Assembly (NCBI GenBank): GCA_029204225.1
Contig: CM055102.1
Location: 23,033,390 to 23,097,389, forward strand
Source: Diphasiastrum complanatum
Lineage: Eukaryota > Streptophyta > Lycopodiopsida > Lycopodiales > Lycopodiaceae
Reading direction: 5' to 3'
Length of the DNA stretch: 64,000 nt
In this document: one piece after another, positions 38,745 to 62,500 of the stretch
How the letters are laid out: each line of letters starts with the position of its first letter
How positions within the stretch are numbered: the first letter of the stretch is position 1
Notes under the pieces: model-generated
The model's input: the letters and a program-made list of their open reading frames with translations, nothing else
The model's database searches: none
What the model was told of the DNA's origin: nothing
Made by a program: the position numbers and the translations under genes

Positions 38745-41375
38745 TGGCGCCATGCCAGATCGGGGGTCCCGATGTGGGTGACTTCCCTCCGCGCCAGCCG
38801 CCCGACATACATCAAACTTAACCAACTCGAAGCTTCATTACAAACGAGTAACATCCATTCCAAGCAAGCGGTCTGACTTACATCAGACTTAACCAATTGA
38901 AAGCTTCGTCACGAGCGCTGGAAGCCAACCTGGCGCCACGCCAGACTAGATAGCCATAAACAGGTAACTTCCACCCAAGCAAGCCATCCAACTCAACCGA
39001 CAGGTTAGAGCCCGTTCCCCAAGAGCTTAACCCATTCACATTCATGCAAGGAACACTTAGAACCACAAGCCACGATAGATATGGAGACAACCAGTTCTTG
39101 GACCAAATGGTCCCGACAGCATACCGTTGGCGCTACGGACCGAATGGTCCCGACGGCATACCGTTGGCGTCCCGGGATACGACCCTCAGCTATGTGCCAA
39201 ATTAAAAAGTTTGAAGCGGCCTTACAACTGGCGCTTTTACCGAACACTGAAACCCAGAAGGTAATCATAGTCAGTTTGAGGAAAATCCCACTTTATTGAT
39301 AAATCTGAGGAGGTTACATATCAAATGTGTGACCGACCCTAGTCTCCAAGGCGCTGGCATGCCAAGGCGAGTGCTAGGACAACATTCCAGCAAGGGAGGC
39401 TGAGACTTGGTTGGAGCTCGCCCTGAGTCGGAACCCGCACTCCCCTATAGTATTGGTGGGATTCGCCACCTCCCCTCATACCAAGTACTCTACCCAGGCT
39501 GGTAAAGCACGTTTTCTCTCTCTAGAAAGTCATTTTATCTCTCTAGAATTTATTGATCCGCAGGCTTCCTTTAATCATGCCTAGATCGTGTGAGATGATT
39601 GCACATCGATCTGAGCTCTCTGGACTTCGCTAGAACCGATCAAAGATTTTCAGCCATAGGGACTTGGCGCCGGCTGGATTCTGGTCACAGTGGCGCTGGG
39701 AACAGTAGGGGCGCTTCTGGCGCCGGGGACAATATTGGCGTCGGTGGCGCCGTAAGTAAGGCTTGTAAAGGTAACTTTACAACATCCACCCCACCTTTAT
39801 AAAATCTGATGTCCTCATCAGATGTCAGATTAAAGTAAAGGTGCCTCCCAATTAAGAGTAACTATACATTTGATCTACTTGGCACGATACTCAATTTATT
39901 GGCCACTTTTTATTAACATTGAAGCTGGCACACCACAAGTCGGAGGCTCAGCTAAATGTACTAAAAAAGTACTTAACTTGTAGCACCTTGACTCATCAAG
40001 TCCCCCGTTCTGCCAACCACCCCGACCGTGGACGCACCCGCGCTTACACTGTGGGCAGCACCTTGCACAGCAGTTGTCCTGATGAACCCCAAACAGTGGC
40101 CATGCCCGCGAGATCCGCATAGCTGACCGACCAGTCAGCTCTGATACCACATGTAGCGCAGGCATCCCAAAGGGAGTTGGGAACCACGACTTAGCTTCCC
40201 AGGCTTCAACTCTTGCCATCCAAACCCAACTGACATACAAGCAGCCAACTCGCCAACAAAGATCAGACTTAACCAACTTGAAGTTTCAAAACCAACATTG
40301 AGATCCAACCTGGCGCCATGCCAGATCGGGGATCCCGATGTGGGTGACTTCCCTCCGTGCCAGCCGCCTGACATACATCAAACTTAACCAACTCGAAGCT
40401 TCGTTACAAACGAGTAACATCCATTCCAAGCAAGCAGTCTGACTTACATCAGACTTAACCAGCTGAAAGCTTCCTCATGAGTGCTGGAAGCCAACCTGGC
40501 ACCACGCCAGACTGGACAGCCATAAACATGTAACTTCCACCCAAGCAAGCCATCCAACTCAGCCGACAGGTTAGAGCCCGTTCCCCAAGAGCTTAACCCA
40601 TTCACGTTCATGCAAAGAACACTTAGAACCACAAGCCACGACAGATATGGAGACAACCAGTTCTTGGACCAAATGGTCCCGACAGCATACCGCTGGCGCT
40701 ACGGACCGAATGGTTCCGACGGCATACCGTTGGCGTCCCGGGATACGACCCTCAGCTATGTGCCAGATTAAAAAGTTTGAAGTGGCCTTACAACTGGCGC
40801 TTTTACCGAACACTGAAACCCAGAAGGTAATCATAGTCAATTTGAGGAAAATCCCACTTTATTGATAAATCTGAGAAGGTTACATTTCAAGTGTGTGACC
40901 GAACCTAGTCTTCGAGGCGCTGGCATGCCAAGGCGAGTGCCAGGACAACATTCCAGCAAGGGAGGCTGAGACTTGGTTGGAGCTCGCCCTGAGTCGCAAC
41001 CCGCACTCCCCTATAGTATTGGTGGGATTCGCCACCTCCCCTCATACCAAGTACTCTACCCATGCTGGTAAAGCACATTTTCTCTCTCTAGGATTTTCTC
41101 TCTCTAGAAAGTCATTTTCTCTCTCTAGAATTTATTGATCCCCAGGCTTCCTCTAATCATGCCTAGATCGTGTGGGGTGATTGCACATCAATTTGAGCTC
41201 TCTAGACTTCGCTAGAACCGATGAAAGATTTTCAGCCATAGGAACTTGGCGCTGGCTGGATTCTGGTCACAGTGGTGCCGAGAGCGGCGTTGACACTAGT
41301 GGCGTCGGGAGCAGCAGGGGCGCTGCTAGCGTCGGTGGCGCCAGAAGTAAGGCTTGTAAATGTAACTTTACAACA
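38745..41375 (-). mobile_element. Non-autonomous LTR element D, LTRs longer than interior
   Basis: The 5' LTR spans 40152-41375 (1224 bp, TGTAGCGCAGG…TTACAACA). The 3' LTR spans 38745-39784 and lacks the first ~160 bp at its left edge. The interior is only 39785-40151. It holds the iMet primer site (40149-40138, minus) and a purine-rich tract on the minus strand (39796-39785) directly before the 3' LTR. No gag or pol is present. It is more G+C-rich than its surroundings. It resembles a TRIM or LARD element in lacking genes but has long LTRs and a tiny interior, so it would depend on another Copia-type element. Confidence 0.85.
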
Positions 41376-41396: not shown

Positions 41397-42510
41397 TTGG
41401 TATCGAGTGCACTTCTGACATCTTATCCTAGGATCATCAAGGACCATATGGATGGAGGATTTCTCAGTGTTCCAAGAGTTGGATACTTCAATGTTGAATG
41501 GCACTTAGCAGGTGATTTGAAAACATTGAAATGCATAGATAGTGTCTCTCATGGTGCTACATATAAACATCCTTGTTTGTACTACATGAAAATGGCAGAA
41601 AATGTAACTAGAAGTACAAGAATTACTAGAGAAAATGCAGATCCAAACTGGAAGCCTTATTGCCTATTCCCTTCAAAAATGTGCATGTTTGCACTCTTCA
41701 TGTAGAAGTTAGGATAATAGAGAAGCTCGTTTATATTCATATAGTTTTTGCTTGGAATAGTAAGCCAACATCATCAACGAAGGAAGCTATTAGTCGATTA
41801 GAAGATGTTTTATCGAAAGCATGACTTCATATATGGGACATGTCAAAATACAAAAAGATGAATATGCCTACTAATCCAAGCATAGGAGGAGCAAAAGCAC
41901 ATCGATTCCTATCAAACCACACAAGTAAGGCTTCTAATATTTAACACTTAGTCTGGAAAGATATTGTTGCTGCCACTCAGGACTTGGGGGTGACCGACAA
42001 AACTAGATTACTGAAAGTTGATGTATGGAGGAAGCTTGACAGTATGATTAAAATATCAAGAAAAGACAAATCTTCTAATATTGATAAGAGAGCTCTACAA
42101 AAGACTTGTGTCGATTTTGTTGATGCAGTATCAAAAGCATGGGGAGAAGATCACATCACTTATTACATGGTTAGTATTCATGCTCACAGCTGCTTTGAAT
42201 TCAACTATATATTTTGATCCAAGCATAAGACTGACATTACGATTTTGACATGTGCAACACATACTAAGAGATCATACATCATTTTTTGCAAACACATATA
42301 AAAGCCTAAGTGTCTGGTCATCACAAGGGATGGAGAAGTCACATTGGCAAGCAGGGGCAACATTTCATTGAAATACACAACATGGAGGAACCAATGAAAA
42401 ACGAAACTATATTTGTCAATTATTTCAGTGGTTCTATCGCAGAGTTCAGATTCGATAGATTACCAAATCTTCAAATTATGACAAATTTAGAAAAGCTTGC
42501 AACTCATTGA
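41397..42510 (+). pseudogene. Gene a: unidentified, decayed multi-part coding region
   Basis: Collinear plus-strand frames read SYPRIIKDHMDGGFLSVPRV, AGDLKTLKCIDSVSHGATY and ENADPNWKPYC (to 41705). These are followed by SKPTSSTKEAISRLEDVLSK (41770-41820), LGVTDKTRLLKVDVWRKLD and DFVDAVSKAWGEDHITYYM (to about 42170), then WSSQGMEKSHW and NTQHGG (42315-42395). A GTTAGT at 42170 and an AG near 42305 could bound an intron. The GDLK…C and QGMEKSHW…TQHGG blocks remind me of uncharacterised transposon-associated eukaryotic proteins, which I cannot name. At least three stops each fit one C-to-T change. It converges with gene b. Confidence 0.5.
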
Positions 42511-42587
42511 GCAACAAAGAAGTTAGAAATTTAGAGCAACAAAGATGCTACAAAATTTTATTCATAATATTCAGTATATACAAAGTT

Positions 42588-44111
42588 TCATTTAGTGGGA
42601 TCTGATATTTCGTCTTGTCCAATTGTTGTGCTATCATGCAGTAACTCTCTGCTTGCATAAGCATCCAGAAGATGCGCATTGTCCTTGTTACCACTCAATT
42701 CTATAAACGTTGCATACAATGAATAATGGGAACTCCTTAATGGTACATTTCCATCTACAAATCCTAATATGTTCAAAACATACAATCTCTTTTAAAAAAA
42801 TTATTTTATTTGCTTTAGCAAAGTTATGTCCACCTAGTTAATAAGATAAGGCTTTCACAGCCATTATCAGAGTCTCTCCAACTGGACTAAGTTTGGAATG
42901 AGCAACACAAATTTCATTTTTCTGAAAGTGCCTCAAGTAGTGGCCAAGACCACTACCCCTGTGGAACGATGATGAATGTTGTCTGAAGCCCCCTTGACTA
43001 GTAGCAAAGTCGTCGATCACAAGTGAATTATGCATAACAAAATTGGAGCTCTTAGTTTATAAAACTCAATAGAACACATACATATGATAAACTTACAGTA
43101 AAACTGCTAAACTTATGCATTCTTCATTATCTGCTGCAACTAGATCGAGATGATCTATATTGTGACCCCCTATTCAAGAAGAGTCATCTGCAAATTTCAC
43201 TACCGATGGACGAGGGAATCCCAGTTGGGCCTGGAAGGAAATAAATTTCTCTTCAGATGGCAAAATTTGTTGGCATGATCATGAACATTTGAAAAAGCCA
43301 TCAACAAACATTCCTCACTAGTCAGAATACCTTCTTCATCATCATAGTCAATGCCCAGCACCATGTCGATTTTAAAATCAACAAGGTTAGAGAATTCAAA
43401 AATGGTGCACAATAGACAAAGAATCTCATCCTCCTGATAATCGAAAAAAACGCACAGATCTGTAGTTGTAATATATGCTTCATTAATATAATATTTCAAC
43501 AAATCAAAGAAGCATTTGGAATGTACATCAACAATTTTTTTCTCAATATTGGCATTGGAGTCAATGAAGACATCTCTCAACTTATCAGTATCTACACTCA
43601 TATAGTCAGTGTCTTTATCAGGAGTATCCACCAAGAAATGACTGATATCCTTTATGGAAGGTTTAGTAGTGGAGAATGAAGGGATCTCAGTTTTAGAAAT
43701 TGATGTATCTAACTCTTCTGGGATCTGCACTAACAAAAAAAACACAAATCTGGTTTGATACTTGCGATAATGATATTTTTGTTTACATATATTACATTAA
43801 GTGAAATTCTTAAATTGGTCAAAAATTTTAGTGTACATCTTGTCTAGTTGTTGCTTATAATGTGGAAAACTATCTACAAGGTTAGTGAAATGCATAAACG
43901 ACAAATTACCCAAAGATATTAGAGGGATATTGATTATATCCCTGAATCTGACATATTGGTCATAAAAAACATTTGGACTCTATTATGTTGTATTGAACAC
44001 ATGTAAAAAAGGCTAGAAGAGGGACTTGAAGTACTCTATGAACTCAGTTATACCAAACTCAGTGAGAAATCTGGACAAGGACTCCCGACTAGGATCAAAC
44101 GAGGAAGCCAT
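42588..44111 (-). pseudogene. Gene b: unidentified gene with a likely intron
   Basis: The start is ATG at 44111 (MASSFDPSRESLSRFLTEFG). The same frame continues to 43796, with stops at three Gln-compatible positions (TAG and TAA-TAG), each explainable by a C-to-T change. A 71-bp intron is likely: GTAATA at 43795 and a T-rich stretch ending TGCAG at 43725. The next exon is open from 43724 to 43200 and is acidic (IPEELDTSISKTE… and SNLVDFKIDMVLGIDYDDEE). The frame is not preserved across this intron as it stands. Further open pieces lie at 43035-42838 and 42785-42588. No domain is recognised. A TATAAA box lies at about 44315-44306 on the same strand. Confidence 0.5.
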
Positions 44112-44918
44112 TGCCTAGTATCAGTTTTGTGTGAGAGGGGACTATCCGTGAAAAAAGGAGTACATTATGCATGCACAAAACTGATATGTATGCTCTTGTA
44201 CACGTGTCGTGTTCTAGGTCACAGCAACGACAAGTCGGGCATGCATAGAACCGATATGACTGAAAATCGAGAAAGAAAGACGAAAAAAATATTTTGGGGA
44301 TCATGCCCTTTATAGTTGTTTCACACATGCAAGTCAAATGGTCAACCGACCATGTGTCGGCCTTCGATTGGCTCAAGAACGACCACACGTGCAAAACTAC
44401 ATAGTTTCCAGGTGTCAAGAACTGATTGGTCCATACATGACATGTGTCGAGGTCTCATTGGGCCACTGGACACGCACATGCGAATGCCACATGTTTATCC
44501 TTGAGCGGGTTGTATAGAACTCACACATGTGACAACACATGCGACATCTAAGGGCACAAGGTCACAAACATCGAGGTCATTTTCACTTTTTGTTCTTTAG
44601 ACTTTTGTCACATATCACTTCTTTACGCGTCCCGTTTGCTCCCTCATCGCCTTGTCTCTCTGCATGCGCACAAGAGCGATACTGCGACTGTACATATCGC
44701 TTTTGTGCGTCATTACCTCATTTGCCACTTTTTTCTTTCTCGACCCTTGCACAAGACCGATACATCTCTACATATCGCACCTCCGCAAGCCTAGTTATCC
44801 TCCTCTGATCATTGTTACTATAACCTCACACAAAACCCATACTAGCCACATGTCTAGGGTCAAATAGAATCAGAGGGATTTTTTCTCTCCTAGTATTGTG
44901 TCCACGAGTACTCCTGCT
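44112..44918. promoter_or_regulatory. Divergent spacer between genes b and c
   Basis: Both flanking genes are read away from this 800-bp spacer. On the minus strand a CTATAAAGG TATA box (about 44306-44315) lies 200 bp before gene b, with AGCCAAT some 50 bp further up. On the plus side GCACAAGAGCGATAC (44668) and GCACAAGACCGATAC (44749) are direct repeats, each followed by ACATATCGC. A related ACAAGAGCATACATATC lies on the minus strand near 44173-44200. Shared control of b and c is inferred, not shown. Confidence 0.4.
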
Positions 44919-45281
44919 ATGAATCCACCATGGCAGACTAGGCATAACAAGAGCAGGTGGCTCTCTGAGATTAAGAAATATCAGAGATCCACCTTACTCT
45001 TGATACCAAGAGCCTCTTTCTATAGAATTGTCCATCAGATTACTAGGGATAATCTGGACAGTCTTGTTAGGTTCACACCTAGAACACTGCAGTGCTTGCA
45101 TGAGACTGCAGAAGACTATTTGAGCTCTTTTTTTGAAGATTCATTTTTTGAGAGATACTGTAAACTTCACAAGGGTGAACTCTCTGCTCCCAGGGATGAT
45201 CCCATTGACAGGACTAATCTTCTCACTAAGAGGCCTTGCAGGCAACCTTCCCCCAAAAGGAGTAAGAAAACCTCTACTTAG
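44919..45281 (+). CDS. Gene c, part 1: diverged histone-H3-like fold
   Basis: From ATG 44919 the 120-residue frame matches the histone H3 core from the N-terminal helix to helix 2. LSEIKKYQRSTLLLI corresponds to H3 LREIRRYQKSTELLI. FYRIVHQITRDN corresponds to FQRLVREIAQDF. RFTPRTLQCLHETAEDYLSSFFED corresponds (by parts) to RFQS…ALQEAAEAYL..LFED. After FED the resemblance drops, and the C-terminus is basic (KRSKK). The N-tail is only about 14 residues, though the frame is open upstream to 44868 and TTTTTTCTCTCCTAG at 44891 could be a splice acceptor. It is neither canonical H3 nor obviously CENH3. A GTAAGA (45261) with an AG at 45352 would join the next open exon in phase. Confidence 0.78.
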   Translation: MNPPWQTRHNKSRWLSEIKKYQRSTLLLIPRASFYRIVHQITRDNLDSLVRFTPRTLQCLHETAEDYLSSFFEDSFFERYCKLHKGELSAPRDDPIDRTNLLTKRPCRQPSPKRSKKTST

Positions 45282-45475
45282 GGACCTAAAAAGGTATGAC
45301 GCATGGACCTCCAACATTCCTCATTTGGAGGTGATGCGATTGTAAATACAGTTGTCTTAGATATTGTGGTCGACTCAGCCACAAAAATTTTGGACAATCC
45401 TTCTGTCAACCCCTTTATTGTGAATACTACTCCTCTCCCCCCTCCTTCCATTAATCTCACTCCTTTATTATATTT

Positions 45476-46156
45476 TGTTAAAAATTCACAATTCTAGCTT
45501 GACTAGTTTTGGTCATATGACTTGTAAATAGTTAGATGGTCATGATGTGGCTTGTCACATGTGCCAAATAGCATAGGATTCTATTAATAAGGATGTTCTC
45601 AAGTAGAACTAAGTGTTAGAACCTTTGGAATGAGTCCAAATTATGCTTAGATACAAGGGAGAAAAAATAGGAGCTATTTTTGGTAATTTTTGCATTGTTG
45701 AGGGATCTCCAAGATTCCAACCCTAACTTGGTAGGGATGAAAGATCCACCAAAATTAGCATTAGGGATAGGTTTAGGGCTACTCATACCTGCCCAAAACC
45801 GTGATGGATCATGTATATATAGTGATGATATCTCACCAAAATCAATCAAGCAATTTCATGTTTTTTCTCTCATAATGGTGCAATTGCTCTCTATGTTCAT
45901 AATTGTTTGAGTACTTGTGATTACTATTGAATGTAGGTCTGGTGTACAGTACTCAGACTGTGGGAGGCCGTACTTTCACACGTGTGAATCCTTCTTCAAG
46001 GATTTGGGCCATTTAGTGAGGTTCAAGAATAGATTTTTGATGGATTTTGATGGTTCAACTTGTGCTAATCTTATGAAATCATAATCTATTGTTTTCCTCA
46101 TCATTTCAAGTGTTTTAGGATCCTTATTTGCTGTAATTTTTACATGGTATCAGAGC
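45476..46156 (+). promoter_or_regulatory. Copia-2 5' LTR, TATA box and primer site
   Basis: U3 drives transcription from the TATATATA box at 45814-45821. Downstream lie GGCCGTAC and the perfect 10-bp palindrome CACACGTGTG (45977-45986). The LTR ends TTTTTACA at 46144, directly followed by the primer site TGGTATCAGAGC. Confidence 0.9.
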
Positions 46157-46954
46157 CTAAAGGTTGAAATGAGCTAAATCCTTGGTTTTCATTCAATTTG
46201 ATCACAATTTTTGATCTAAATCTTGTGTAGATTGGATCTTAGCATCTAGTATTGATTCTAGAACTCAAAGTGAGTCAAATACATTGGAGATTGGTGTTGT
46301 GTGACTTCATTTGCAGGTGTTTAGGTGTCTAAAACCAGAGGCAAAGTTGAATTCAATTCACATTACCAAGATAGCAAGTTTTGCTTGCTCCAAGCATTGA
46401 TTTCTAAGCGAGTTTTGGAGGTGATTTCATAGAGGAGGCTTTCTAGCATTCAAGGAGAGGGAAGATCAGAGTTTTGGGGACTCTTCAAGGCTGTTCTAAG
46501 GTGTAGTAGGCACCTCCTAAAGTGATTTAGGTTCAGTCCAACCCTTGCTTGACTTATGCACCAAATTAGATCAATTTTTCATCATTTTTGATCATTTTTT
46601 GCTTGTGATTGGATAGTAGATTGTGTTGCATCCTCATTAAGTTCCATTTAGCTCTTTTCAAGTGATTTTGGAAGTATATTAGGTTGCTGAAATTCACTCT
46701 TGATCAGATCATTTGGAAGTTTTAATGTTCTTTATAGAAAGAGGGGCAATTCTACTAGTATTGTCTACTTCAATCAAGCAAGTGCATTGTTTCTAGTATT
46801 CTATGATTTGATTTTGTTAGAGATCATTCTTAGATCTTTATAGGAAGTCTATTACTGATCTTTTCAGGTCCCTAAGAAGTGGGATAAGATAGACCTTCAA
46901 TCAAATCAATAGAAGTAACCTTCATTTGTGTCAAGTCCTTGATTAGGAGACTAG
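46157..46954 (+). other. Copia-2 untranslated leader
   Basis: About 800 bp lie between primer site and gag-pol start, without tandem repeats. This differs from the repeat-filled leaders of Copia-1 and the Gypsy elements. Confidence 0.8.
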
Positions 46955-49900
46955 ATGGCATCTATAAATGCATATCTTTTGGATACTAATGAAAGGCTCA
47001 ACAAAACTAACTATTCCATATGGAAAGTTAGAATGGAATCTATCATGATCATGCAAGATCTGATGGAAATTGTAAATGGTAAGGAGGGTGAACCTATTCA
47101 TCCTCAAGAAAAAGCCAAATACATCAAGAGGTGCAATGTTACACTACATTGCATAAAAATGAATGTTGCAAATGAACTCTTAAGAGAGGTAGGAGATTGC
47201 ACTTCAGCTCAAGATGCTTGGGAGACTTTGCAAAAGGTCTATGAATCCAAGAACCAAACTAGAATGTTAGCTTTGAAGAATGAAATCTATAGAAGCTATC
47301 AAAAGAAAGGAGAGAGTGCACATACTTTTGTCCTAAGAGTAAAGGAATTGAACAAAGAGCTAGCCTTTATAGGTGACCCTATCAAGGATGAAGAGCTTGT
47401 TCAACTCATATTTAATGGACTAAGCTTTGAATTTGACAATTTGGTTCAGGGATATGCAATTATGGGTAAGCTACCCATACTTGAAGAACTCCAAGGCACA
47501 CTCATGACCGAGGAATCAAGAAGGAGCCAAATGCAAGAGAGGATCGATAGGCTTTCCATCCAAGGTGGAGATGACCAAGCTCTCTTCACCAAAGGCAAAG
47601 GCAAGTCCAAAGGCAAAGGATCAACATTCAAGAAGTCTACAAAGCTTGAGGATCAAGAAGGACCCCCAAAGGCATCTCCATCAACCACCAAAGTCAACAA
47701 GGACAAATCAAAGGTGAAGTGCTACTATTGTAGCAAGATGGGGCATTATGCCTCGGAATGCTTCAAGAGGAAGCAAGATCAAAGCCAAGACAACATGAGC
47801 AAAGAGGAGGAGGAGGAGAGTTCACATGAGGACTCTCTCATGATGTCCATATTTTCTTCAACAAGCTTCAAAGGAGAAGATCCTTGGTGGATTGACTCGG
47901 GTGCTAGTTCACACATGACTAGTAAAAGGGAGTTTTTCTCTTCTCTCTTATCTTATGATGGACCTATAAAGTCTATCTATATAGCAAATGATGAAGCTTG
48001 TAAGATTGAAGGAGTTGGTAGCATTCCCCTTTGCTTAGGATCTTCCAAAAAGATCAACATAGAAGGTGTTTTGTACATTCCCACAATAACAAAGAATCTA
48101 CTAAGTGTTGGCCAAATGGTAGACAATGGTTTCAATTTTGACTTTGCTTCAAATGAATGTTTCATCAAGAAGAAGGGTAAGATAGTGGCTAAGGGCACTA
48201 GACTTGGCAAACTTTATAAGCTGGATGCATTTGTGGATACTAATGTTGTCATGTTGGCCGAGAAGAGCAAGATATCTACCTTTACTTTATGGCACAAAAG
48301 ACTTGGACATGTCAACTCGGGTTCCATGGAGGCTATGATCAAGGAGGAGTATGCTTTAGGCCTAACAAGGTCTATTGGGAAGGAAGACAAGGTTTGTGAA
48401 GCTTGTGCCTTATCCAAGGCACATAAGAAGGTGTTTCCTAACTCCATCACAAAGTCATCTCATCCTCTTGAACTCATACACTCGGATGTGCACATTGCTA
48501 GCACCAAATCTAATGGAGGTTCATCCATGTTTTTAACCTTCATTGACGACTACTCAAGATATTGTTGGGTGTTCTTACTTTCCCTCAAGTCTCAAGTATT
48601 TGATACTTTTGTAAAGTTCAAGTTGTTTGTGGAAAAGCATCATAATCATAGCATCAAGATTCTTAGAAGTGACAATGGTGGAGAATTCATCTCCAATGAG
48701 TTCAAGGCCTTTTGTGAGGAGGAAGGGATCAAGAAAGAGACTTCTTGTCCTTACACTCCTCAACAAAATGGAGTTGCTGAAAGAAGGAATAGAACATTAT
48801 GTGAATGTTCTAAGGCTTTAAGATTAGATGCTTGTTTGCCCAAATCCTTTTGGGGTGAGTCTCTTGTATGTGCAAACTACTTGATGAATAGGGTGTCTTG
48901 CAAAGCAATTGAAGGCAAAACTCCTTATGAGATGTTGTATGGAAAGAAACCCAATCTTGATCACTTGAAAGTTTTTGGGTGTATATGTTATGTGCATGTG
49001 CCATTGGAAACAAGAACCAAGGAGGATCCATCTTCCACAAGAGGGATCATGCTTGGATATGCAAGCTCAAGCAAGGGCTACAAAGTCTATCTCCCATCCT
49101 TGAACAAATTTGTTGTTTCAAGGGATGTCATCTTTGATGAACATCATATGCATATGCTTGAAGAAGGCTCAAGTGCTCCAACAATCAAGAAGAAGATGGC
49201 CGAGGAGCAAGATCTTGGTTTTGAGGAGGAGCTCATGGAGGAGCAAGCACCAAACCCACCTATCACACCAAGGAGATCTTCAAGGGCAAAAGTGGAGCCA
49301 TCAAGGCTCACATATCAAGGCAAAGAACAGCAAGTTGAGGGTATCTCATCCACTTCTTATGCTTTATCTAGTTTTGAAGAACCGTCTAATGTTGAAGATG
49401 CATTGAACTCCAAAGAATGGTATAAAGCTATGTTGGATGAGTATGATGCCTTGATTGAGAATGAAACTTGGTTGCTTGTTGAGAGACCTCAAAGGAATGT
49501 AATAGGATGCAAGTGGGTCTTCAAGCTTAAGTTGAATGCAAATGGGAGTGTTAACAAACATAAAGCAAGATTAGTTGCAAAAGGTTATGCTCAAGAGAGA
49601 GGGATAGACTATGAGGAAACTTTTGCACCCGTGGCCAAGATGGTCACAATAAGACTAATCATTGCACTTGCATCACATTTTGGATGGATTCTATGTCAAA
49701 TGGATGTCTCTAATGCTTTCTTGAATGGTTTTTTGGAAGAGGATATCTATATGGAGCAGCCACAAGGGTTCATCAAGCATGGAATGGAGAACAAAGTATG
49801 CTATCTCCAAAGAAGCATCTACGGCTTGAAGCAAGCCTCGAGATCTTGGAATTCAAGACTACATTGCTATCTTATTTCACTTTCTTTTGTTCAAAGTGAA

Positions 49901-50923
49901 TATGATCCCACTCTTTACATTAAGTTTGATGATGTTGGTATTGTACTTTTACTCATTTATGTAGATGACATCATCATTAGTGGAAATAGTGTTGATGGTA
50001 TTGAAAAAATCAAGATAGATCTATCCTTAGAGTTCAAGATGGTAGATCTAGGGTGTCTTCACTTCATCTTAGGCATAGAAGTACTTAGAGGGTCTGATTT
50101 TATCTTTATAAGTCAAGTAAACTATGCTCAAAGTCTTTTGAAGAAGTTTAAGATGGAAGTATGCAAAAGTGTTGACACACCAATGGAGCAAGATGTAAAA
50201 GTGCCAAATGAAGATGATGAAAGATCCTTCATGGACATCACTTTGTTTAGACAACTTATAGGTTACTTAATGTGGATCACTATAACTAGACCAGATCTTA
50301 GCTTTAGTGTATGTAGGTTGAGCCAATCCATGCAAAAGCCATTGAATATCCATTGGAAAAAGACTAAGAGGATTCTAAGATACATCTCGGGTACATTGGA
50401 TTTTGGGATTCTATATAGAGGAGATGTGATTAACCTTCATGCATTTAGTGATTCAGATTTTGCAGGGGACAAGAGGGATAGGAAATCAACAAGTGCCTAT
50501 TCAACTTTCATAGGAGAAGGTGTGGTTTCATGGCTTTCAAAAAAGCAAGAAACTATATCTCTATCTTCAACCGAGGCTGAGTACAAAGCTTTGACAACCA
50601 CTACAAAGGAGGTACTTTGGATCAAGAGATTATTGGTGGAACTAAAGATCATGGATTCAGAGGAGGCACCAATCATCTACAATGACAATATATCAGCCCA
50701 ACACCTTGCATCTAACCCAATCTTCCATGCAAGATCTAAGCACATTGAGATATGCCATCACTTTGTGAGAGAAATGGTGCAAGCCAAGGAGATTGCTTTG
50801 GAGCATGTTCCAAGCAATGAATGTGTAGCTGATCTACTTACTAAACCACTTCAAAAGACACCTTTTATGAAGTTCAGATCATCACTTGGAGTGATTAGTA
50901 AAGCAATGATTGAACCAAGCTAG
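46955..50923 (+). CDS. Copia-2 gag-pol polyprotein
   Basis: This is a single 1322-residue frame. Gag begins at residue 1 (LNKTNYSIWKVRMESIM). The zinc knuckle CYYCSKMGHYASEC covers 256-269. The protease site DSGA is at 314-317. GAG-pre-integrase/HHCC starts at WHKRLGH (His about 447). Integrase D511, D573 and E609 leave the usual 35 residues between the last two. RT YVDD is at 1002-1005, and the RNase H block DSDFAGD begins at about 1166. HARSKHIEICHHFV is near the C-terminus. All catalytic residues I can check are present and no stop or frameshift interrupts it. Together with near-identical LTRs this suggests an element capable of movement recently. Confidence 0.97.
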   Translation: MASINAYLLDTNERLNKTNYSIWKVRMESIMIMQDLMEIVNGKEGEPIHPQEKAKYIKRCNVTLHCIKMNVANELLREVGDCTSAQDAWETLQKVYESKNQTRMLALKNEIYRSYQKKGESAHTFVLRVKELNKELAFIGDPIKDEELVQLIFNGLSFEFDNLVQGYAIMGKLPILEELQGTLMTEESRRSQMQERIDRLSIQGGDDQALFTKGKGKSKGKGSTFKKSTKLEDQEGPPKASPSTTKVNKDKSKVKCYYCSKMGHYASECFKRKQDQSQDNMSKEEEEESSHEDSLMMSIFSSTSFKGEDPWWIDSGASSHMTSKREFFSSLLSYDGPIKSIYIANDEACKIEGVGSIPLCLGSSKKINIEGVLYIPTITKNLLSVGQMVDNGFNFDFASNECFIKKKGKIVAKGTRLGKLYKLDAFVDTNVVMLAEKSKISTFTLWHKRLGHVNSGSMEAMIKEEYALGLTRSIGKEDKVCEACALSKAHKKVFPNSITKSSHPLELIHSDVHIASTKSNGGSSMFLTFIDDYSRYCWVFLLSLKSQVFDTFVKFKLFVEKHHNHSIKILRSDNGGEFISNEFKAFCEEEGIKKETSCPYTPQQNGVAERRNRTLCECSKALRLDACLPKSFWGESLVCANYLMNRVSCKAIEGKTPYEMLYGKKPNLDHLKVFGCICYVHVPLETRTKEDPSSTRGIMLGYASSSKGYKVYLPSLNKFVVSRDVIFDEHHMHMLEEGSSAPTIKKKMAEEQDLGFEEELMEEQAPNPPITPRRSSRAKVEPSRLTYQGKEQQVEGISSTSYALSSFEEPSNVEDALNSKEWYKAMLDEYDALIENETWLLVERPQRNVIGCKWVFKLKLNANGSVNKHKARLVAKGYAQERGIDYEETFAPVAKMVTIRLIIALASHFGWILCQMDVSNAFLNGFLEEDIYMEQPQGFIKHGMENKVCYLQRSIYGLKQASRSWNSRLHCYLISLSFVQSEYDPTLYIKFDDVGIVLLLIYVDDIIISGNSVDGIEKIKIDLSLEFKMVDLGCLHFILGIEVLRGSDFIFISQVNYAQSLLKKFKMEVCKSVDTPMEQDVKVPNEDDERSFMDITLFRQLIGYLMWITITRPDLSFSVCRLSQSMQKPLNIHWKKTKRILRYISGTLDFGILYRGDVINLHAFSDSDFAGDKRDRKSTSAYSTFIGEGVVSWLSKKQETISLSSTEAEYKALTTTTKEVLWIKRLLVELKIMDSEEAPIIYNDNISAQHLASNPIFHARSKHIEICHHFVREMVQAKEIALEHVPSNECVADLLTKPLQKTPFMKFRSSLGVISKAMIEPS

Positions 50924-51795
50924 ATAGTGAGGAGGAGTGTTAAAAATTCACAATTCTAGCTTGACTAGTTTTGGTCATATGACTTGTAAATAGTTAGATG
51001 GTCATGATGTGGCTTGTCACACGTGCCAAATAGCATAGGCTTCTATTCATAAGGATGTTCTCAAGTAGAACTAAGTGTTAGAACCTTTGGAATGAGTCCA
51101 AATTATGCTTAGATACAAGGGAGAAAAAATAGGAGCTATTTTTGGTAATTTTTGCATTGTTGAGGGATCTCCAAGATTCCAACCCTAACTTGGTAGGGAT
51201 GAAAGATCCACCAAAATTAGAATTAGGGATAGGTTTAGGGCTACTCATACCTGCCCAAAACCGTGATGGATCATGTATATATAGGTGATGATATCTCACC
51301 AAAATCAATCAAGCAATTTCATGTTTTTTCTCTCATAATGGTGCAATTGCTCTCTATGTTCATAATTGTTTGAGTACTTGTGATTACTAATGATTATAGG
51401 ATTGAATGTAGGTCTGGTGTACAGTACTCAGACTGTGGGAGGCCGTACTTTCACACGTGTGAAGCCTTCTTCAAGGATTTGGGCCATTTAGTGAGGTTCA
51501 AGCATAGATTTTTGAGGATTTTGATGGTTCAACTTGTGCTAATCTTATGAAATCATAATCTATTGTTTTCCTCATCATTTCAAGTGTTTTAGGATCCTTA
51601 TTTGCTGTAATTTTTACATATTTGGATTCTAAAGATTATCTAGAATTGGAGAGAGATATATCGGATGTTATGGATAATATCGGCATGCCAATTCTCTTCT
51701 AAATTGAAGAAATTGGTTTAAGTCTTAACTTTAGAATCTCTGACTGTATTCAGATGAAGGATAGAAGGGCTTCTATTAGCGATCTAGTGATAGAG

Positions 51796-52263
51796 GCGGG
51801 TCTCCCTGTGCTGCAATTTGATATTGCAAGGGATTCAATGAAAGAAATGTGTCTTCTCAACAATTTCTTTCTGTAGGCCATCAAGGATGACAACGACACT
51901 TTGTCACACTATCTCCTTGGTGGATGCTCACCAGCTAATGATGCCATATCATACCAAGTATGTTTATTTCTCTACTTGTTTGTATGTTTAAGTTTACTTG
52001 TAATCACTGTATCATATATCTAATAGAATGCGGGTCTCCCTCTGCTGCAATTTGATATTGCGAGGGATCCAATGAAAGAAATGTGTCTTCTAAACGATTT
52101 CTTTCTGCAGGCCATCAAGGACGACAACGACACTTTGTCACATTATCTCCTTGGTGGATGCTCACTAGGTAATGATGCCATATCATACCAAGTATGTTTA
52201 TTTCTCTACTTGTTTGTATGTTTAAGTTTATTTGTAATCACTGTATCATATATCTAATAAAAT
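51796..52263 (+). repeat. Tandem duplication of an exon and part of its intron
   Basis: A 234-bp unit (GCGGGTCTCCCT…) begins at 51796 and again at 52030. It includes the end of the coding exon, its GTATGT donor (51958 and 52192) and about 65 bp of intron. The second copy reads LLNDFFLQAIKDD with no stop. The first reads LLNNFFL, then TAG. The duplication therefore leaves one open version of this exon. Confidence 0.88.
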
Positions 52264-52930
52264 GCTTTTTTGTTTTTGCAGTGAACACTGGAGCTTGAAT
52301 TAGTCTCTATACAAAATAACTGTAAATAATGTAGTAAATCTTTTTTGTGTGAAGATGAATTTTGCCCGTAACACACATAAAGATATTGACTCACTGATGC
52401 TAACAATTTGTAAATACTTTCTAGTAGAGAATGCCACGGTAGGGGCATGTGAAATCGTAAGCATTGAGGTAACCATTGAACACTTCTTGCATATTTTTAT
52501 TAATTATTTTTGTTTAGTGTCAGTTTCTTCCTCCCATTATTAATCAGTTGATCGTATTGTAGACATTCCAACAAAATGACTCATTTAGTTGTGCATGATG
52601 GTGTACTCTTTATAATGCAAAGTTAGTTTTTGAGTGGTACAATGTTCAAGAGGATGTTGATATTTCGAAGGTGAGTTATTTAGTCTCCTTTCTCTTTAAT
52701 CTGCATCTAATATATTGTTTATTATACATATTCATCTAATATATTGTTTATTGTAGTTTGCCCTCGGTGATTATACAGCTGGCGAAGTGTACAAGTTTTG
52801 ATAGGAGCTCATCTTTAGTCTTTTGGCCAGGTCAATAGCTAGACCAAAGACTTCTCCAGGGCCATCTAAGCCAGATGATGTTCAGATTTTAAATGAGATT
52901 GGGGAATTTGTAAATACCCAAGCTGAATAG
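52030..52930 (+). pseudogene. Gene c, part 3: Ulp1-type (C48) cysteine peptidase
   Basis: The order of C48 motifs is complete. CLLNDFFLQAI fits the substrate-side LND motif (52090-52098). After an acceptor TTTTTGCAG (52281), EHWSL supplies the catalytic His-Trp (His codon 52286-52288). HKDIDSLMLTICKYFL supplies the Asp. Across a GTAACC…TTGTAG intron (52469-52562), TFQQNDSFSC supplies Gln and the nucleophile Cys (52590-52592). A strong GTGAGT donor (52671) and TTGTAG acceptor (52756) lead to FALGDYTAGEVYKF and a tail ending at 52930. Stops at TAG (about 52301), TGA (in the Cys exon) and TGA-TAG (52799-52804) inactivate it. Ulp1 peptidases process SUMO or related modifiers; plant Mutator-like elements are known to carry Ulp1-like genes. 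Confidence 0.75.
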
Positions 52931-53229: not shown

Positions 53230-53660
53230 AAATGTTACCAGCTTTTCATTGATAATGAATATGAAGTGTTCAGAAAGAATTTCATAGTGCATTAAGACCA
53301 GCTCTTGTCTGATATAACTTAAGCTCCAATGATTCTCCACTTCAATCGTAGTTAGCATATCTTCATTGTTGATCTCTGTGACCATCCATTTGAAGATCTT
53401 GATCTAGTGGCGTCTAGGTCCCACTTATTTGTTTCCATCTCTGGTAACTAAATGTAAGACTAAGCATTTGTCTCTCAATGCAATAACGAAATATCATACA
53501 AGATTTCTTAATTCTACATTCAATAGCTCCAACTGCCTTGCATTCCCACCCTACATCTATCAGATCTGAAAGAGTGTCATCTGACACATCCTTACAAACA
53601 AATAATGTTGGTGTTCTACGAACATTTGCATTTGAAAAGAAATCAACAAATACATATAAG
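53230..53660 (-). pseudogene. Gene d: unidentified minus-strand coding remnants
   Basis: Minus frames read NWFLSLYVFVDFFSNANVRR, PTLFVCKDVSDDTLSDLIDVG, WECKAVGAIECRIKKSCMIFR and YCIERQMLSL (about 53670-53460). A separate frame, WSLSYIRQELVLMHYEILSE, lies at 53345-53270. I recognise no family. It faces gene c tail to tail. A Copia-3 LTR fragment starts at about 53695 and probably truncated it. Confidence 0.4.
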
Positions 53661-54311
53661 GACAGAAACCAATTTAATCTATTGACTTTTGATCCAGTAA
53701 ACTCTGTTTACAGGCCGTACAACAGCCTCATTTTCACATGTGTGAAGTCGGATTATAGCTTTTGATCAATACTCTGATTGTCTCTACTTGTTTTCTATCA
53801 AGCTGCTAAACTAGATCTTGTTTTCTGATGACTAGTATTTGATAGATTGTTTAACAAGCACACAATCAACCTTGTGGATCATTCAAAGATCCATTTATGG
53901 TCCTTAGTATTGTACTTTTAACATGGTATTAGAGCCAAGTACAAGCTATTGATCAGTGTCTAAAACTATTCCAGTTTTAGCAAGTTTTGGTGCAAAAAGC
54001 TAGTATTGGAAGGACGAGCTGGTATCCAGATTTTGGTGAGGAGATTTGATCCCAAACTTTTCCAGGATCAAAATCCGTACTGTTCACACGTGTGGGCATC
54101 TTTGAACCAGCATTTAAAACCCCATATTCATTGGATCACTGTAATTTCATCTGGTGTTAGTTTGATGTAATTTTTGGTGCAAATTCTAGGATAAGCTACC
54201 AAGATCACTTGCCATCAATTAGTTTTGGATTTGATTCATGAAAACTAATTAATCTAGGCTGAATTCAGACCTTTTTAAAGTAGAAACTAGGTCTAGAAAG
54301 TACATCAAAGT

Positions 54312-54456
<145 letters not shown>

Positions 54457-55056
54457 TCTATTGTCCAAAATAGCCTAGATTGGCAAGATTTGCTTGAGAG
54501 TAGTTTTTACTTCATCTTATCTTCATTCCAGCTTTGTGAGGGAGTGATAGAACTGTGGTTACAAGTCCATCTGTTTGATTAGAAGTCAACATTTGAGTGA
54601 AACACTGCAAGTTAGAAACCTTTGTGAGTTTCAAGCTCAAACCATTAGAGGAGTTTTGAGCTCCAAAAGGACCCTTTAAAAATTCGTGTAGGATGTAGTT
54701 TATATTATTAAAATATTATAGCATTAATACTTTTGACTTGCCAAAATCTTTTAATCGTAGCCCAAAAGTATGTCATCTAACATATCATTGGAAAGCCCTT
54801 GTTGAGCGCTTTCCAATGCACAAAACTTCGCTAAATTTGAACTTACCACTAAAAAGTTATGCCAGTTTTAGTGTGGAATCAAAATGTGGACTCAAAAAGT
54901 TACGTTACGTAGATTTCAAATTTGAGTGTTTTGATTGGTCCATGTGTAAGAAAAAATTGAGAAAAAATATAAAAAGAATCTTTACAAAGGGTCTTTTTTA
55001 GATTTAGAACTCCTCTAATGAAATCTATATCTTGTGTGTAGAATTTCACTAGTAAG

Positions 55057-55700
55057 ATGGGATCTGCTGGAGCATACCTTCTAGAAGCTAGTGAGAGGTT
55101 AAATTCTACCAATTATGCTATTTGGAAAGTGAGGATGGAGTCACTCATGGTGCTCCAGGATCTCTATGAGTTTCTGATTGATGATGGAGATCATCTACTA
55201 AGAATTTTGGCATTTTGTATAGAGGGACTAATCTTGGCTTAAGAGCCTATAGTGACTCGGATTTTGCAGGTGACAAAGTAGATAGAAGATCAACAAGTGC
55301 TTTTTCCACCTTTCTATGTGATGGAGTAGTATCATGGCTTTTTAAAAAGCAAGATACCATCTCTTTATCTTCCACAGAATCCGAATACAAGGCCTTGACA
55401 GCAACATGCAAGGAGGTCTTGTGGCTCAAAAGGCTATTGGTGGAGCTTCGTGTCATGGAGGAGGAGATTACTATCATCTATTGTGACAACCAATCAGCCC
55501 TAATCACTTGCAACTGATCCTGCATTCCATGCAAAAAGCAAACACATCGAGATTGCTCATCATTTCGTGAGGGAGAAAGTGCAAGTCAAAGAGATCAAGC
55601 TCCAACATGTGCCATCATCAAGTTGCTTGGCTGATTTGTTTACTAAATCTTTACCTAAAGATTCATTTGTCAAGCTTAGATATTCAATTGGAGTGATTTA
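55057..55700 (+). pseudogene. Copia-3 gag start fused to RNase H by deletion
   Basis: ATG 55057 opens MGSAGAYLLEASERLNSTNY, closely like the Copia-2 gag start. At about 55195 the sequence changes to RNase H (FGILYRGTNLGLRAYSDSDF in the neighbouring frame). It continues through VVSWLFKKQDTISLSSTESEY, IYCDNQSALI and HAKSKHIEIAHHFVREK to LPKDSFVKLRYSIGVI. The rest of gag, protease, integrase and RT is deleted (about 3.4 kb by comparison with Copia-2). A frameshift near 55510 also breaks the RNase H. Confidence 0.88.
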
Positions 55701-55819
55701 ATTATCTTTCCATTTACTTGATGTTCTTCTAATTTATAGAATCAAAAAATGTATTTTATAAGATTTTCAATATCAAAAAAAATATTATTACAATCGTTGT
55801 AATTGAGCTCACCATATTC

Positions 55820-56210
55820 TCATTTGTATAAATAAGTTATTTGAAGTGGTTGGCCGACTACTTTGAACATTCCATCATTATAATAATTTCTTGCTAATCT
55901 TACCCGATATGGACGAGGAAGATACATTTTCTTCATCATCACTTGAGAAAAAGCTTCTTTAACTATCCTAAAAAAAGTGGAATATGCATTTTTGTTGATT
56001 CTAGAATAATCACATGTACCTTGTATCACATTTGCATCCAAGTAAATTTGAACCTTATTCAAAATAGCCTCTGCAATTTCGTTTTACATTTTTTCAAAGC
56101 AAGCATTTTTCATCATTGCCTTTGTTGACTTTCTTGGTAAAACATGACTTAAAGATGATCTAATGCATGAACAATCTATTAAATAGTTTTTTGCCACCAA
56201 ACATGATCTA
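55820..56210 (-). pseudogene. Unidentified minus-strand frame
   Basis: The frame 56062-55820 reads IYLDANVIQGTCDYSRINKN and LPRPYRVRLARNYYNDGMF. Less complete collinear codons extend to about 56150. I recognise no family; it could be part of a host gene or a DNA transposon. Confidence 0.3.
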
Positions 56211-56929
56211 CAACAAACATATAAAACTCAAATTAATTTTAATAAATTGATAATGAATGTTATGAAATGCAAATGAAACTTAAATGACAAATACAAACCA
56301 AATAAATGATTTATAAGAAAACATACTTAAATGTTCGAATCCTTTTTTTTCTAATTGCCACTATGTGTAGAGAAGTCATCAATACTCTTCATCGGTACTC
56401 TCTTTCTTTTCCTTTTCATCATTGCCTTTTGGGTAACTTGTATATCAACCACAAATTTTAAACTTTTCGATCACAACTTGTCCATGGATTCTATCATATC
56501 TTGGTTTGAGCCACAAAGACTAGTGACTGTAGCATTCAACTCTGATATAACATGCTTGATGTTGATTTCACACGTGTGGAGTGCCCACCACTTGTGCTTT
56601 GGATCTCCTAAGGTGTGTAGATGCACTAAGATCAAGACTAGATTGAGATTCAAGATCTATCTTTGATTCTATGGCAAAAACACGCTACTACATGCATTCA
56701 ATCACTTCCAACTCTCACTCACACATGTGGGAAGTGTTCCAAAAATAATCCAAGTAAAAAAAATTGCTCTCCTCAAATAGAGAGAGAAAATCATCATGAG
56801 CTCTCGGGTAGAGAGAGAAAAATAGAAAACCAATTACTCACAAAATCCACTCAATCTCCAAATCAATTAGATTTAAAAGAGAAGTACAATGATACTAGTA
56901 GATCCACGAGCTATCACAATGCTCAATCA

Positions 56930-59045: not shown

Positions 59046-59589
59046 TGAAATCCAAGATCAATTGATGAAAACTAAGGCAAAGAGGCGAAGTTACATGCAT
59101 ACATTCATAACTGAAGTAGTTTCACATGTGTGGAAATATGTACTTCTAGAACTAAGTGTTGGAGGATGCAAGCTATGCACAAAGTGGCTGCGTCCGAAAA
59201 GGCACCAAAAAGAGTGCATTCGTCCCATAAGCAAATGGAGACTATAACAGAATCCACATATAAGCTCATTGTAGACAATGTACCCTTGTCCCCTGGTACA
59301 AACCCTTTTGGGGTCAAAAGGGAATAATGGCGGGTGGCTAGGCGGTGGGGATGGGATCCCGCACGCGGCCCGTAGGCATAAGGTAGTAGTCTGATGCTAG
59401 TAAGTAATCAAGACGAAATATAGACAACAAGTGCGCCTGCGTGCGAGACGAGCTTTGTGATCAGGATCCATAGAGGTCCAATTGTTCGCTAGTAAAGCGA
59501 GACGATTACTCGTGAGAGAACCGTGTTTCTCTCACACCAATGCACTGCGTGGATTTGCATGCAGTGCTTAAAGAAAGCAGAGGAAGATC
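59046..59589. other. Unassigned stretch before element E
   Basis: About 59320-59480 is locally G+C-rich (GGGATCCCGCACGCGGCCCG). Two short near-palindromes, GTTCTCTCAC/GTGAGAGAAC and GCACTGCGTGGA…GCATGCAGTGC, lie at 59500-59570. No gene is seen. Confidence 0.4.
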
Positions 59590-62500
59590 TGTGGTGACTT
59601 GGTTTCAACAATTTGTTAATGATTTTAGCTTTTTATTGCTAAATATTCAGCCTTTGCTTTTCCGTTGTGTATAGCCTAATCATAAGTTGCATTCAGTGGG
59701 GTGTGACTTAAATTTGTTTTGTGGCATTAAGGCAGCCCTTTTACTACTTATAAATTTGGCATATGGTTGTGCCTAGTTGTTGCTCTTTTAAGTTATAAAA
59801 GTCATTGGTTTAAGAAGGCACGAACCTTCGTCAAGCTGTTCTTAAGGTTGTAGTCATATTCTAGAGCCCAGTCGGCATTCTCGCATTATTCGGCTTTGTG
59901 TGAGAGTCAAGTTTCAATGCCAGTTTTAGAGGCTGACTATAACCTGCCATGTTCGCAATTTTTTTTGGGCAAACTACTATTTTCAAAGGCAAGGCACTAC
60001 AAATCTGAAGGGCCATTGTCGCACATTTCTCACTATTCGGGATTTTTGGAGCCTCGTTCATTCTTTAGTGCCTACCTCGAAGCACCTCCACGTAGCCAGA
60101 GACTCTCACCTTCGCATTTCTTAAGGACAGTTGTCGCACTTCTTAAAGGCAGCTTTGCACTTTTCTCTCTCTATCTTCGGGTTCTTGTAGGGCAGGCTTT
60201 GCTCTTCATCTCCAGCTAGCCATCGTGCTTCTTTTGGAGCGCAAACTAGCAATTAGGGTTGCTTGATCTTATGATCATTCTCCAGGATGCAACCATATAC
60301 AAAGATAGATTTCAGATGGCATATGCAACGACAACCATCTTCGTTCTTTAGCGACAGTTTACCAGTAGCCAACGACAGTTCCAAAGGCAGTTAGGGCAGC
60401 CCACGCGTTTCCATCTCAAGCGGTTGTTTGCAGGTGTCATGGCTATTTGCAATGGGAAGCGACCTGTTTCACCACTCTGTTGGGCTGTTTTCAAACAGTT
60501 TTGAGCTAGTGGCCCTCATTCATCCTTCATATGGTTGGTTTCCTTGCACAAGGCAGCGACCTTGATTCCAACTATCGGCTATTTGTTGGCAGCATTCCAT
60601 TGGCCCATGGGCAGTCATTTCTAGATGTCAGATATCTATTTGTTCTCTCTTTGCAGACAGTTATCAAAGCCCATAGCCTCTAGCACGTTCTCTCTCTGGC
60701 TATTAGTTGTCAGCTTATGCCATTGTAAATCATTCAGACATAATGTTGAACAGAGGCTCAAAAGCTCTGTTGGTGCTTTAATGAAGATTTACTGCTTTTT
60801 CTATTTATCTACAAGTTCAGAACCTTTGTGTTCTCAGATTCTTGTATAGAGGTGTAGCAATCCCTCTTCTTTGCAGTGTCTAGACTGTAATGAATATATC
60901 TTTGTACTCTGCAAATGGTGAATACAGAATCACACACAACTTGTTTTTATTGTGAATACCTTCTGTGCTTTTCAGGGTGATTCATTTTGGTAATAGGAAG
61001 TTTATGGCACTGTATTGTTTGTGCCTATACACAATGACTTGGACTGGAATTGATTAGTGAAGTGGCTCTAGCCTTCAATCTTTTGATTTGTGCAGATCAT
61101 AGGAGTTGGATTCATGATAAGCTACTGTCAAGATAACGGAAACACTGTGTAGCTTTTCCTTTTGCCAAAGTATTTGCTTTCTTGAGTTCACTCCCATTTG
61201 AATCTGAAAACCATAATGAAGTATTCAGTATTTTTCTCCTGGGTGTTTGTTTTTTTTTATACGGTTGTACTAGCAGCTCCTTGTGGAAACATCTATTGAT
61301 GACCAGTTTGCAATCACTTCTTCTCTCCACTCTATTCATTCTTAGTTATTTCTAGTTTTGCACTGATAATGACAGTATTAGTCTTTTTATTAACGATACC
61401 CATTTATACTACAAATATCAATCATTTTGTTGTTGGTATGCCGCGACATATACCAATTTTGGCACCGTTGCCAGGAAGCAATGGATGTTCTGTCATTATT
61501 CTGATTCTTGTTTATATTTTTTAGATTCACAGGTTATTGTTCTAGTTCTTCAAGTATTTCAGAAGGGGAAGAGTGAAATCTGAGTTTCGACCACCCTGAC
61601 TCGTCATTTCACTTTTGATTTTCTATTTCCGATTTTTGGTAGAGTTCTTAAATTCGTTTACAGTTTGTAAAATGTGTTTAGTTCTTGTTATGTACAGTCT
61701 GAAGATTATGTTGTTATGTCCAATAATCTCTTGGTTTTCCGTAAGCAAATTTTGATTCATGCTTTTCCAAGAGACGGTTCTATTCTATTTTGTTTTGGCT
61801 CTCTAATTACAAGATCTTTAAGCTAAAATAAAAGCTTGTTCTAAGGCTTTGGTGCTATCCAAGATGTGCTGATGCTGTCTAAAGACTATTGCTGACAAAT
61901 GCTGATCTTTCTATGTTCTATTCATAGTTAACGACTTGTTGGTGCTACTGTCCAAAATCACATTATTTAAATGATGCAGAGCCAAGTTTTTAAAGCTGAT
62001 TTTCTGTTCTGCATATGCTCATAATTATGTCAAATGGTGCTGACTTTTGGAAGTAATATATGCTGAAGTTTTACTTGTTGAAGACTGTACAATCAAGGCT
62101 TTGGCTTGTCAAAGGCTGCAGACTGTGGCAAGTCAGATTCTTTGCAAAGCTTCGACAATGGTTCCTATTCTCAATGTTTACAAGCCGCTGCACACTTGAG
62201 GAGGGGAATATGTGGTGACTTGGTTTCAACAATTTGTTAATGATTTCGGCTTTTTATTGCTAAATCTTAAGCCTTTGCTTTGTCATTGTGTATAGCCTAA
62301 TCATAAGTTGCATTCAGTGGGGTACAACTTAAATTTGTTTTGTGGCATTAAGACAGCCCTTTTACTGCTTATAAATTTGGCATATGGCTGTGCCTAGCTG
62401 TTGCTCTTTTAAGTTATAAAAGTCATTGGTGTAAGAAGGCACGAACCTTTGTCAAGCTGTACTTAAAGGTTATAGTCATATTCTAAAGCCCAGTCGCCAT

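Follow-up and report, generated by a model that had tools for sequence, protein, structure and literature searches.

Can a histone and a peptidase be parts of the same transposon protein? The question is raised by a locus of Diphasiastrum complanatum lying in a 64-kb stretch of contig C11 (the window in what follows), where an H3-like core on the plus strand stands upstream of motifs of Ulp1-type, or C48, peptidases. A sequence-only reading of the window had noticed both, leaving it unsettled whether they are fused or belong to two neighbouring genes. Searching the 1.74-Gb genome assembly of the species, and reading the relatives of the locus found there, we show that the halves form one gene encoding one fusion protein of a DNA transposon, that the gene is present in high copy number and under constraint, and that it holds a place among the other genes of the element. 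From this architecture we infer a function, weighed further below against its rivals.

One gene and one fusion protein in the relatives

Both halves are abundant in this genome. A query with the H3 half found at least 265 matching stretches (150 scored out of 5,607 candidates), with identities reaching 86% when the query itself is excluded, and many of them lie in open frames of 300-470 codons; a query with the peptidase half found at least 398 (140 of 10,513 candidates scored). Readings of the locus as a single gene or as a CenH3 gene are rejected by this copy number. As relatives for comparison we read 20 stretches of 9.9 kb, chosen for long open frames rather than at random, together with seven upstream stretches.

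In ten of the 20 relatives (L009, L010, L013, L017, L019, L020, L021, L024, L025 and L026) a single open frame takes in the H3 core and a basic linker rich in proline and lysine and reaches into the N-terminal part of the peptidase, the frame slipping within the linker in L010 and near the exon end in L017; L009 belongs to the window's own subfamily. Three short exons follow downstream, and their borders recur among the 20 copies: the GT of the first donor is present in 16, the AG before exon 2 in 17, the GT after exon 2 in 18, the AG before exon 3 in 18 and the GT after exon 3 in 16. The spliced product of L024 is 491 residues long and free of stops. All other copies were cut mechanically at the borders of L024, and profile searches were made with an alignment of seven of the 20 products. 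All seven match Pfam Histone (best E-value 3.3e-27), L024 with a complete fold covering positions 28-122 of the 122 in the profile, and six match Peptidase_C48 (PF02902; best 7.9e-9, 36.1 bits, the cut-off being 20.7). Since half of the relatives read share one open frame, since the L024 product is uninterrupted and since both Pfam domains are found in the same protein, this is a true fusion within a transposon rather than a pair of neighbours.

A profile of the peptidase half, made from six relatives, has two matches among 177,635 distinct sequences of the PDB at E-values up to 10, both weak (0.077 and 0.14) and both to Ulp1 SUMO proteases. His339, Gln403, six residues before the cysteine, and Cys409 stand in this order and are invariant in all seven aligned relatives; we take them to be the Ulp1 catalytic residues.

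Selection on the protein was estimated from the ratio of nonsynonymous to synonymous substitution rates (dN/dS) in the 12 of the 20 copies with usable frames, which give 20 pairs between and 46 pairs within two subfamilies. The ratio between subfamilies is 0.09 for the H3 core, and that within them 0.13; the corresponding values are 0.20 and 0.33 for the N-terminal part of the peptidase and, for exon 2 and exon 3, both calculated from eight copies, 0.18 and 0.36, and 0.06 and 0.16, exon 3 being the one that carries the active cysteine. Values of 0.42 and 0.79 were obtained for the linker, and of 0.30 and 0.46 for the short tail at the N-terminus. A wrong-frame control, covering the H3 core, yielded 1.26 and 0.98 in the two false frames against 0.17 in the true one (larger subfamily, uncorrected proportions). 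These ratios indicate strong purifying selection on both domains, and weaker selection on the linker. Within the H3 core, H113, K115, V117, M120, P121 and K122 are kept in all 13 aligned copies, R83, R116, T118 and D123 in 12 and R69 in ten; several of the H3 positions compared make H3-H3' or DNA contacts.

The element and its decayed copy in the window

Copies of the element share a left end, CATTAGAGGAGTTCTCAATATCAAAAAGACCCTTT, and a right end that is its reverse complement. A 32-base stretch of this terminal repeat has 1,147 exact matches in the genome (582 forward, 565 reverse), as against none for a control. Two facing pairs of ends span 9,371 and 9,451 bases, giving a length of about 9.4 kb. 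From the left end to the approximate start of H3 the distance is 5.59-5.84 kb in five copies. Beyond the H3 start, the right end could be located in eleven copies, at 3.74-3.77 kb in L013, L017, L022, L023 and L025 and at 1.34-4.92 kb in the other six, which fits gain and loss of pieces. A target duplication is not evident: six end pairs, four of them joined by their facing ends with the insides unread, include one 3-bp direct repeat and none longer.

The genes follow one another in the order ORF1 (open reading frame 1, plus strand), ORF2 (minus), the H3-peptidase gene (plus) and ORF4 (minus). ORF1 consists of several exons, includes a coiled coil and has a part with the motifs GDLKTLK..HPCLYC and GMEKSH, from which, as read by eye, it looks like a candidate DDE transposase; ORF1, ORF2 and ORF4 match no family in Pfam. 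Of the general traits of DNA transposons with terminal inverted repeats (TIRs), the repeats themselves and the many dispersed copies are found, with a transposase suggested by the motifs, and the element is best read as a high-copy DNA transposon of this type. It could be assigned neither to hAT, there being no Pfam hAT domain in ORF1 and no 8-bp repeat in the six end pairs, nor to the Mutator-like elements (MULEs) of the KAONASHI/Vandal kind: MULEs duplicate 8-11 bp of their target, and we found no Pfam match and no duplication of that length in the same six pairs. A search for relatives in plasmids found none.

The copy in the window retains pieces of all four genes, between 41418 and 53695, and the right end, at 55020; its left part is missing (Table 1). 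With an E-value of 5.4e-13, the open frame at 44868-45281 passes the curated cut-off of Pfam Histone, and its best PDB matches are CenH3 and H3 chains at about 1e-9, so that the H3-like core reported from the sequence is real. It has suffered a 22-residue in-frame deletion that removes loop 2 and the last helix, and the gene has an in-frame stop at codon 6 (44865), counted from the ATG at 44850, and two more stops downstream of the core, at 45279 and 45297, the second also present in relative L015. The stop at codon 6 is common to the window copy and four of the 20 relatives. The gene start had been placed at 44919, which proves to be an internal ATG, the homologous start codon being that at 44850. 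An intron proposed between 45261 and 45352 is also discarded: L009 reads uninterrupted through the positions corresponding to 45262-45351, where the window has its stops 45279 and 45297 instead. The linker, claimed to run in phase once a Copia insertion is discounted, does so, the insertion (45476-51618) being flanked on both sides by the target duplication TATTT, at 45471-45475 and 51619-51623. The Copia element is of plant type and looks young, with long terminal repeats (LTRs) about 97% alike and an uninterrupted gag-pol frame of 1322 codons at 46955-50923.

The peptidase half is further decayed. Joined with stops read as X, the window's own exons matched no family in Pfam or NCBIfam and, in the PDB, only chains at chance level (best E-value 0.85, a receptor). 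The same exons do match their C48 counterparts in the relatives, which in turn match Peptidase_C48, so the C48 motifs are not there by chance: the Ulp1-type peptidase ascribed to the window holds by way of its relatives, whereas the window exons by themselves give no profile match. Likewise, the order of motifs announced for it is borne out for His, Gln and Cys in the relatives, but the DIDSL included in the series may not be the catalytic-acid motif. The other exon ends that had been proposed coincide with the splice borders of the relatives, the AG before exon 4 being seen in L024 only. Taken as a whole, the window locus is a dead, decayed copy of a repeated DNA element.

Table 1. Positions of the transposon copy, its insertion and its ends in the 64-kb window
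Feature	Position	Strand	Evidence
ORF1 remains (candidate transposase), C-terminal exons, with stops	41418..42527	+	tblastn 68-80% identity, E 2e-101 and 2e-47
ORF2 remains, with stops	42600..44111	-	tblastn 53-78% identity, E 2e-93, 6e-40 and 7e-32; homologue in second H3 family
H3-like N-terminal domain of fusion gene, ATG 44850	44850..45296	+	Pfam Histone 5.4e-13; 67% identity to L015, E 2e-68
First part of linker, as far as Copia insertion	45300..45475	+	in phase; tblastn E 9e-7
Copia LTR retrotransposon inside linker	45476..51618	+	LTRs 45476-46145 and 50938-51618
Second part of linker, followed by N-terminal C48 part to the exon 1 end	51624..51957	+	two stops; tblastn 72% identity to L009, E 5e-50
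234-bp tandem duplication of exon 1 end and intron start	51796-52029 / 52030-52263	+	95% identity
C48 exon 2 (HW motif)	52283..52468	+	one stop; 61% identity to L015, E 5e-22; splice borders of relatives
C48 exon 3 (QQNDSFSC motif with catalytic Cys)	52563..52670	+	one stop; 83% identity, E 1e-15
C48 exon 4, gene end	52757..52930	+	two stops; 71% identity, E 2e-22 (52757-52924)
ORF4 remains	53369..53695	-	61% identity, E 1e-42; homologue in second H3 family
5'-type terminal repeat	54643..54682	+	with 54981-55020 bounds a 378-bp stretch
3' terminal inverted repeat ending ..GAACTCCTCTAATG	54981..55020	+	terminus as in relatives

Three further features of the window were noted. The 378 bp between a left-type and a right-type terminus (54643-55020) are possibly a short non-autonomous copy. 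Just outside the window copy, at 55682-56227 on the minus strand, lies a distant ORF1 relative with three stops (36% identity, E-value 1.5e-37), to judge from this match another member of the superfamily. Direct repeats about 92% identical, 59587-61356 with 62208-64000 and 38745-39784 with 40311-41375, are unrelated to the fusion gene.

H3 affinities and a second H3 family

Compared with the PDB, the H3 half of the relatives finds H3 or CenH3 chains, or entries named only histone, in the best 60 of 198 matches; profiles of CENP-T and CENP-S also match, below their cut-offs. Plant CenH3 is likewise a variant of H3, and the element protein has a LIP.A.F stretch in common with Arabidopsis CENH3. 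L024 has 46% identity with the Arabidopsis protein as against 50% with host H3, and L015 41% as against 40%. The trees give no decisive support for placement with CenH3 or with H3 (the final tree was made without the window row). The Arabidopsis query did not pick out a host CenH3, its top 13 matches being canonical H3 genes (150 of 5,528 candidates scored), and a coding pattern for HARRVTLMRKD had no match in the genome.

With canonical H3 as query, 13 places of host H3 came up that are free of stops and 97-99% identical to it, among them C11:30.68-31.04 and 50.37-51.80 Mb and places on contigs C5 and C23; the sequence of this H3 is that of a green plant. The query also found many dispersed matches at 44-57% identity, among which a second high-copy family was recognised. 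Four copies of it were read (L036-L039): the core ends like that of H3, three of the copies stopping directly after ..LRRERN or ..RERT and L038 continuing. The start of the protein, read in one copy (L040 with L037), is MARTKQTARGPR, that is, exact H3 residues 1-8 (ARTKQTAR) after the methionine; an acidic insert of about 290 residues rich in glutamine and proline follows, with one in-frame stop, and then the H3 core; the match to Pfam Histone is at 1e-28. A 74-residue query over this start (150 scored of 412 candidates) gave matches of 60-92% identity, self excluded, and on contig C10 leader and core lie in frames both 440 codons long; C4157:10710-11954 is one of the family's many places.

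Next to a second-family copy stand homologues of ORF4 (E-value 1e-21) and ORF2 (2e-12), in one copy and with E-values from single comparisons, and these neighbours suggest a single superfamily of elements that takes in both H3 families. The fusion protein starts with MDRRKQTRR, which by eye agrees with MARTKQTAR at six of nine residues. The 8-kb stretch read around the second family begins in Copia gag frames, and the terminal repeat of the fusion element was not found in it.

Possible functions and relation to known systems

That selection has retained both halves suggests a transposon acting on host chromatin from inside. A linker that changes more freely than the two conserved domains it joins is the pattern of a two-module protein, one part providing place and the other action. 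H3 is a natural choice for place, and silenced chromatin is an obvious pool of substrates for SUMO proteases. There is precedent for the action as well, in the Ulp1 domain that PMC13317346 describes inside the VANC anti-silencing genes of plant Vandal elements. For these reasons we favour, tentatively, the possibility that the fusion is a nucleosome-anchored SUMO protease easing the silencing of its own element family. The H3 half would pair with host H4 or with an H3 chaperone, placing the protein in or on nucleosomes; the peptidase would there strip chromatin proteins of their SUMO; and any silencing of the element that depends on SUMO, or rejection of its insertion, would thereby be weakened. 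The protein would then be an anti-silencing factor acting in cis or on its family, in the manner of the Ulp1-bearing VANC (KIU) proteins of Vandal MULEs, with H3 as its targeting part.

A wider proposal, which we hold somewhat more doubtfully, takes in the second family: H3 may be a standing cargo of a plant transposon superfamily, one lineage of which keeps ARTKQTAR, a long insert and the core while the other has the H3-SUMO protease fusion, the element's H3 entering nucleosomes or mimicking H3 to its readers and so delivering an anti-silencing enzyme to the element's chromatin as a "selfish nucleosome".

Several observations weigh against a working protease on nucleosomes. An asparagine, Asn363, invariant in all seven relatives, apparently occupies the place of the Ulp1 catalytic aspartate (placed by eye), and for this reason peptidase activity is not assured; Asp371, close by, is invariant in the seven as well, and the weak profile alignment does not decide which is the acid. 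Intact genes, by the mechanical splice rule, number one in the 20 relatives, and four of the ten open-frame copies (L013, L017, L019 and L026) are interrupted at codon 6, before the H3 core begins. The H3 core itself departs from H3 at R63, which is P in 12 of the 13 aligned copies, at L65 (A in all 13) and at R49 (S in 12), and R72 is retained in just six. Finally, the dN/dS values come from copies picked for usable frames, and synonymous divergence (dS) between subfamilies is saturated, at 1.4-2.8.

It is possible, but less likely than anchoring of an anti-silencing protease, that the fusion serves transposition, H3 being a part that binds DNA, docks on chromatin or steers insertion, and the peptidase trimming the element's proteins or their SUMO. 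The fusion gene does share its element with a candidate transposase, and the exact TIR matches on contig C1 are clustered: of the 83, the last 6.6 Mb hold 27 (at 95.04-100.64 Mb), where 5.4 are expected, and the interval 64.9-66.7 Mb holds 15 (at 64.97-66.68 Mb), where 1.5 are expected. Uniform placement, run 2,000 times, gave at most 10 matches in 2 Mb and 18 in 6 Mb, as against 15 and 27 observed. However, the clustering was assessed on this one contig, in intervals both picked after viewing the list, and it may reflect retention in regions of low recombination rather than targeting. The clusters are possibly the centromere or low-recombination blocks.

Proteases with an Ulp1-like fold mature the virions of some DNA viruses. 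Viruses also carry histones, as reported in PMC9145170; the peptidase might accordingly come from a viral or Polinton-type maturation protease, the element being a degenerate virus-like one whose H3 packages the genome. We consider this improbable: the element ORFs tested match no polymerase, capsid or ATPase in Pfam, the PDB matches of the peptidase profile are to cellular Ulp1 only, and three scans of viral contigs found no relative of the window H3, of ORF1 or of the fusion.

A shade more improbable is capture of passengers, fragments of H3 and Ulp1 spreading with the element without function, like the contents of Pack-type elements or the fungal H3 copies killed by repeat-induced point mutation (RIP). 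Gene capture is common, many of the H3 matches listed contain stops, and Pseudocercospora fijiensis has 784 H3-like copies, the amplified ones inactivated by RIP according to PMC6710886. Such passengers are hard to reconcile with purifying selection that is strong on the two domains, weaker over the linker and absent when the H3 core is read in its wrong frames, or with the keeping of an H3 cargo in a second, divergent family. The chance adjacency of two genes, an earlier alternative that could appeal to the separation of the halves by stops 45279 and 45297 in the window, the latter shared with L015, is largely refuted, and hardly credible, given the single open linker frame in ten of the 20 relatives, that of L009 in the window's subfamily included, and the selection that holds both domains in the same frame.

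It has long been asked how transposons evade chromatin silencing, and the anti-silencing factors that they are known to encode are few. A histone joined to a SUMO protease would, if the favoured function is true, be a direct and testable attack on chromatin from within, for which the many copies with both halves under selection offer natural variation to exploit; the sister family, keeping the start of the H3 tail, would represent a second route, by histone-tail mimicry. The fusion would also be a ready-made means of putting an enzyme on nucleosomes. No H3-Ulp1 fusion was found in a search of the literature by titles and abstract openings, in which subscription journals are thinly covered.

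The nearest parallels share features with the element. Viral single histones, as treated in the accessible part of PMC9145170, belong to mobile or infectious agents with a core histone of their own, thought to enter host nucleosomes; that text describes no peptidase fusion, and the carrier here is a chromosomal transposon. The fungal hAT elements of Pyrenophora tritici-repentis (H3L) and P. fijiensis, in the portions of PMC3538342 and PMC6710886 available, are DNA transposons of 5.6-9.5 kb that carry an H3-like gene and number from tens to hundreds of copies. There H3 adjoins a hAT transposase, target duplications are of 8 bp, copies in P. fijiensis are RIP-dead and fusion to a peptidase is not described; here H3 is fused to a peptidase and is under purifying selection, and the hAT domain and 8-bp duplication were not found. 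KAONASHI/VANC-KIU of the Vandal MULEs of Arabidopsis and other plants has, according to PMC13317346, an Ulp1 domain within a larger silencing-escape gene of a plant DNA transposon, but its partner there is VANC, not a histone. Vandal MULEs are non-TIR elements, whereas ours has TIRs and no transposase recognised by Pfam. Transposon-borne H3, in fungal hAT elements, and transposon-borne Ulp1, in plant MULEs, were thus already known apart, and what appears to be new here is their fusion.

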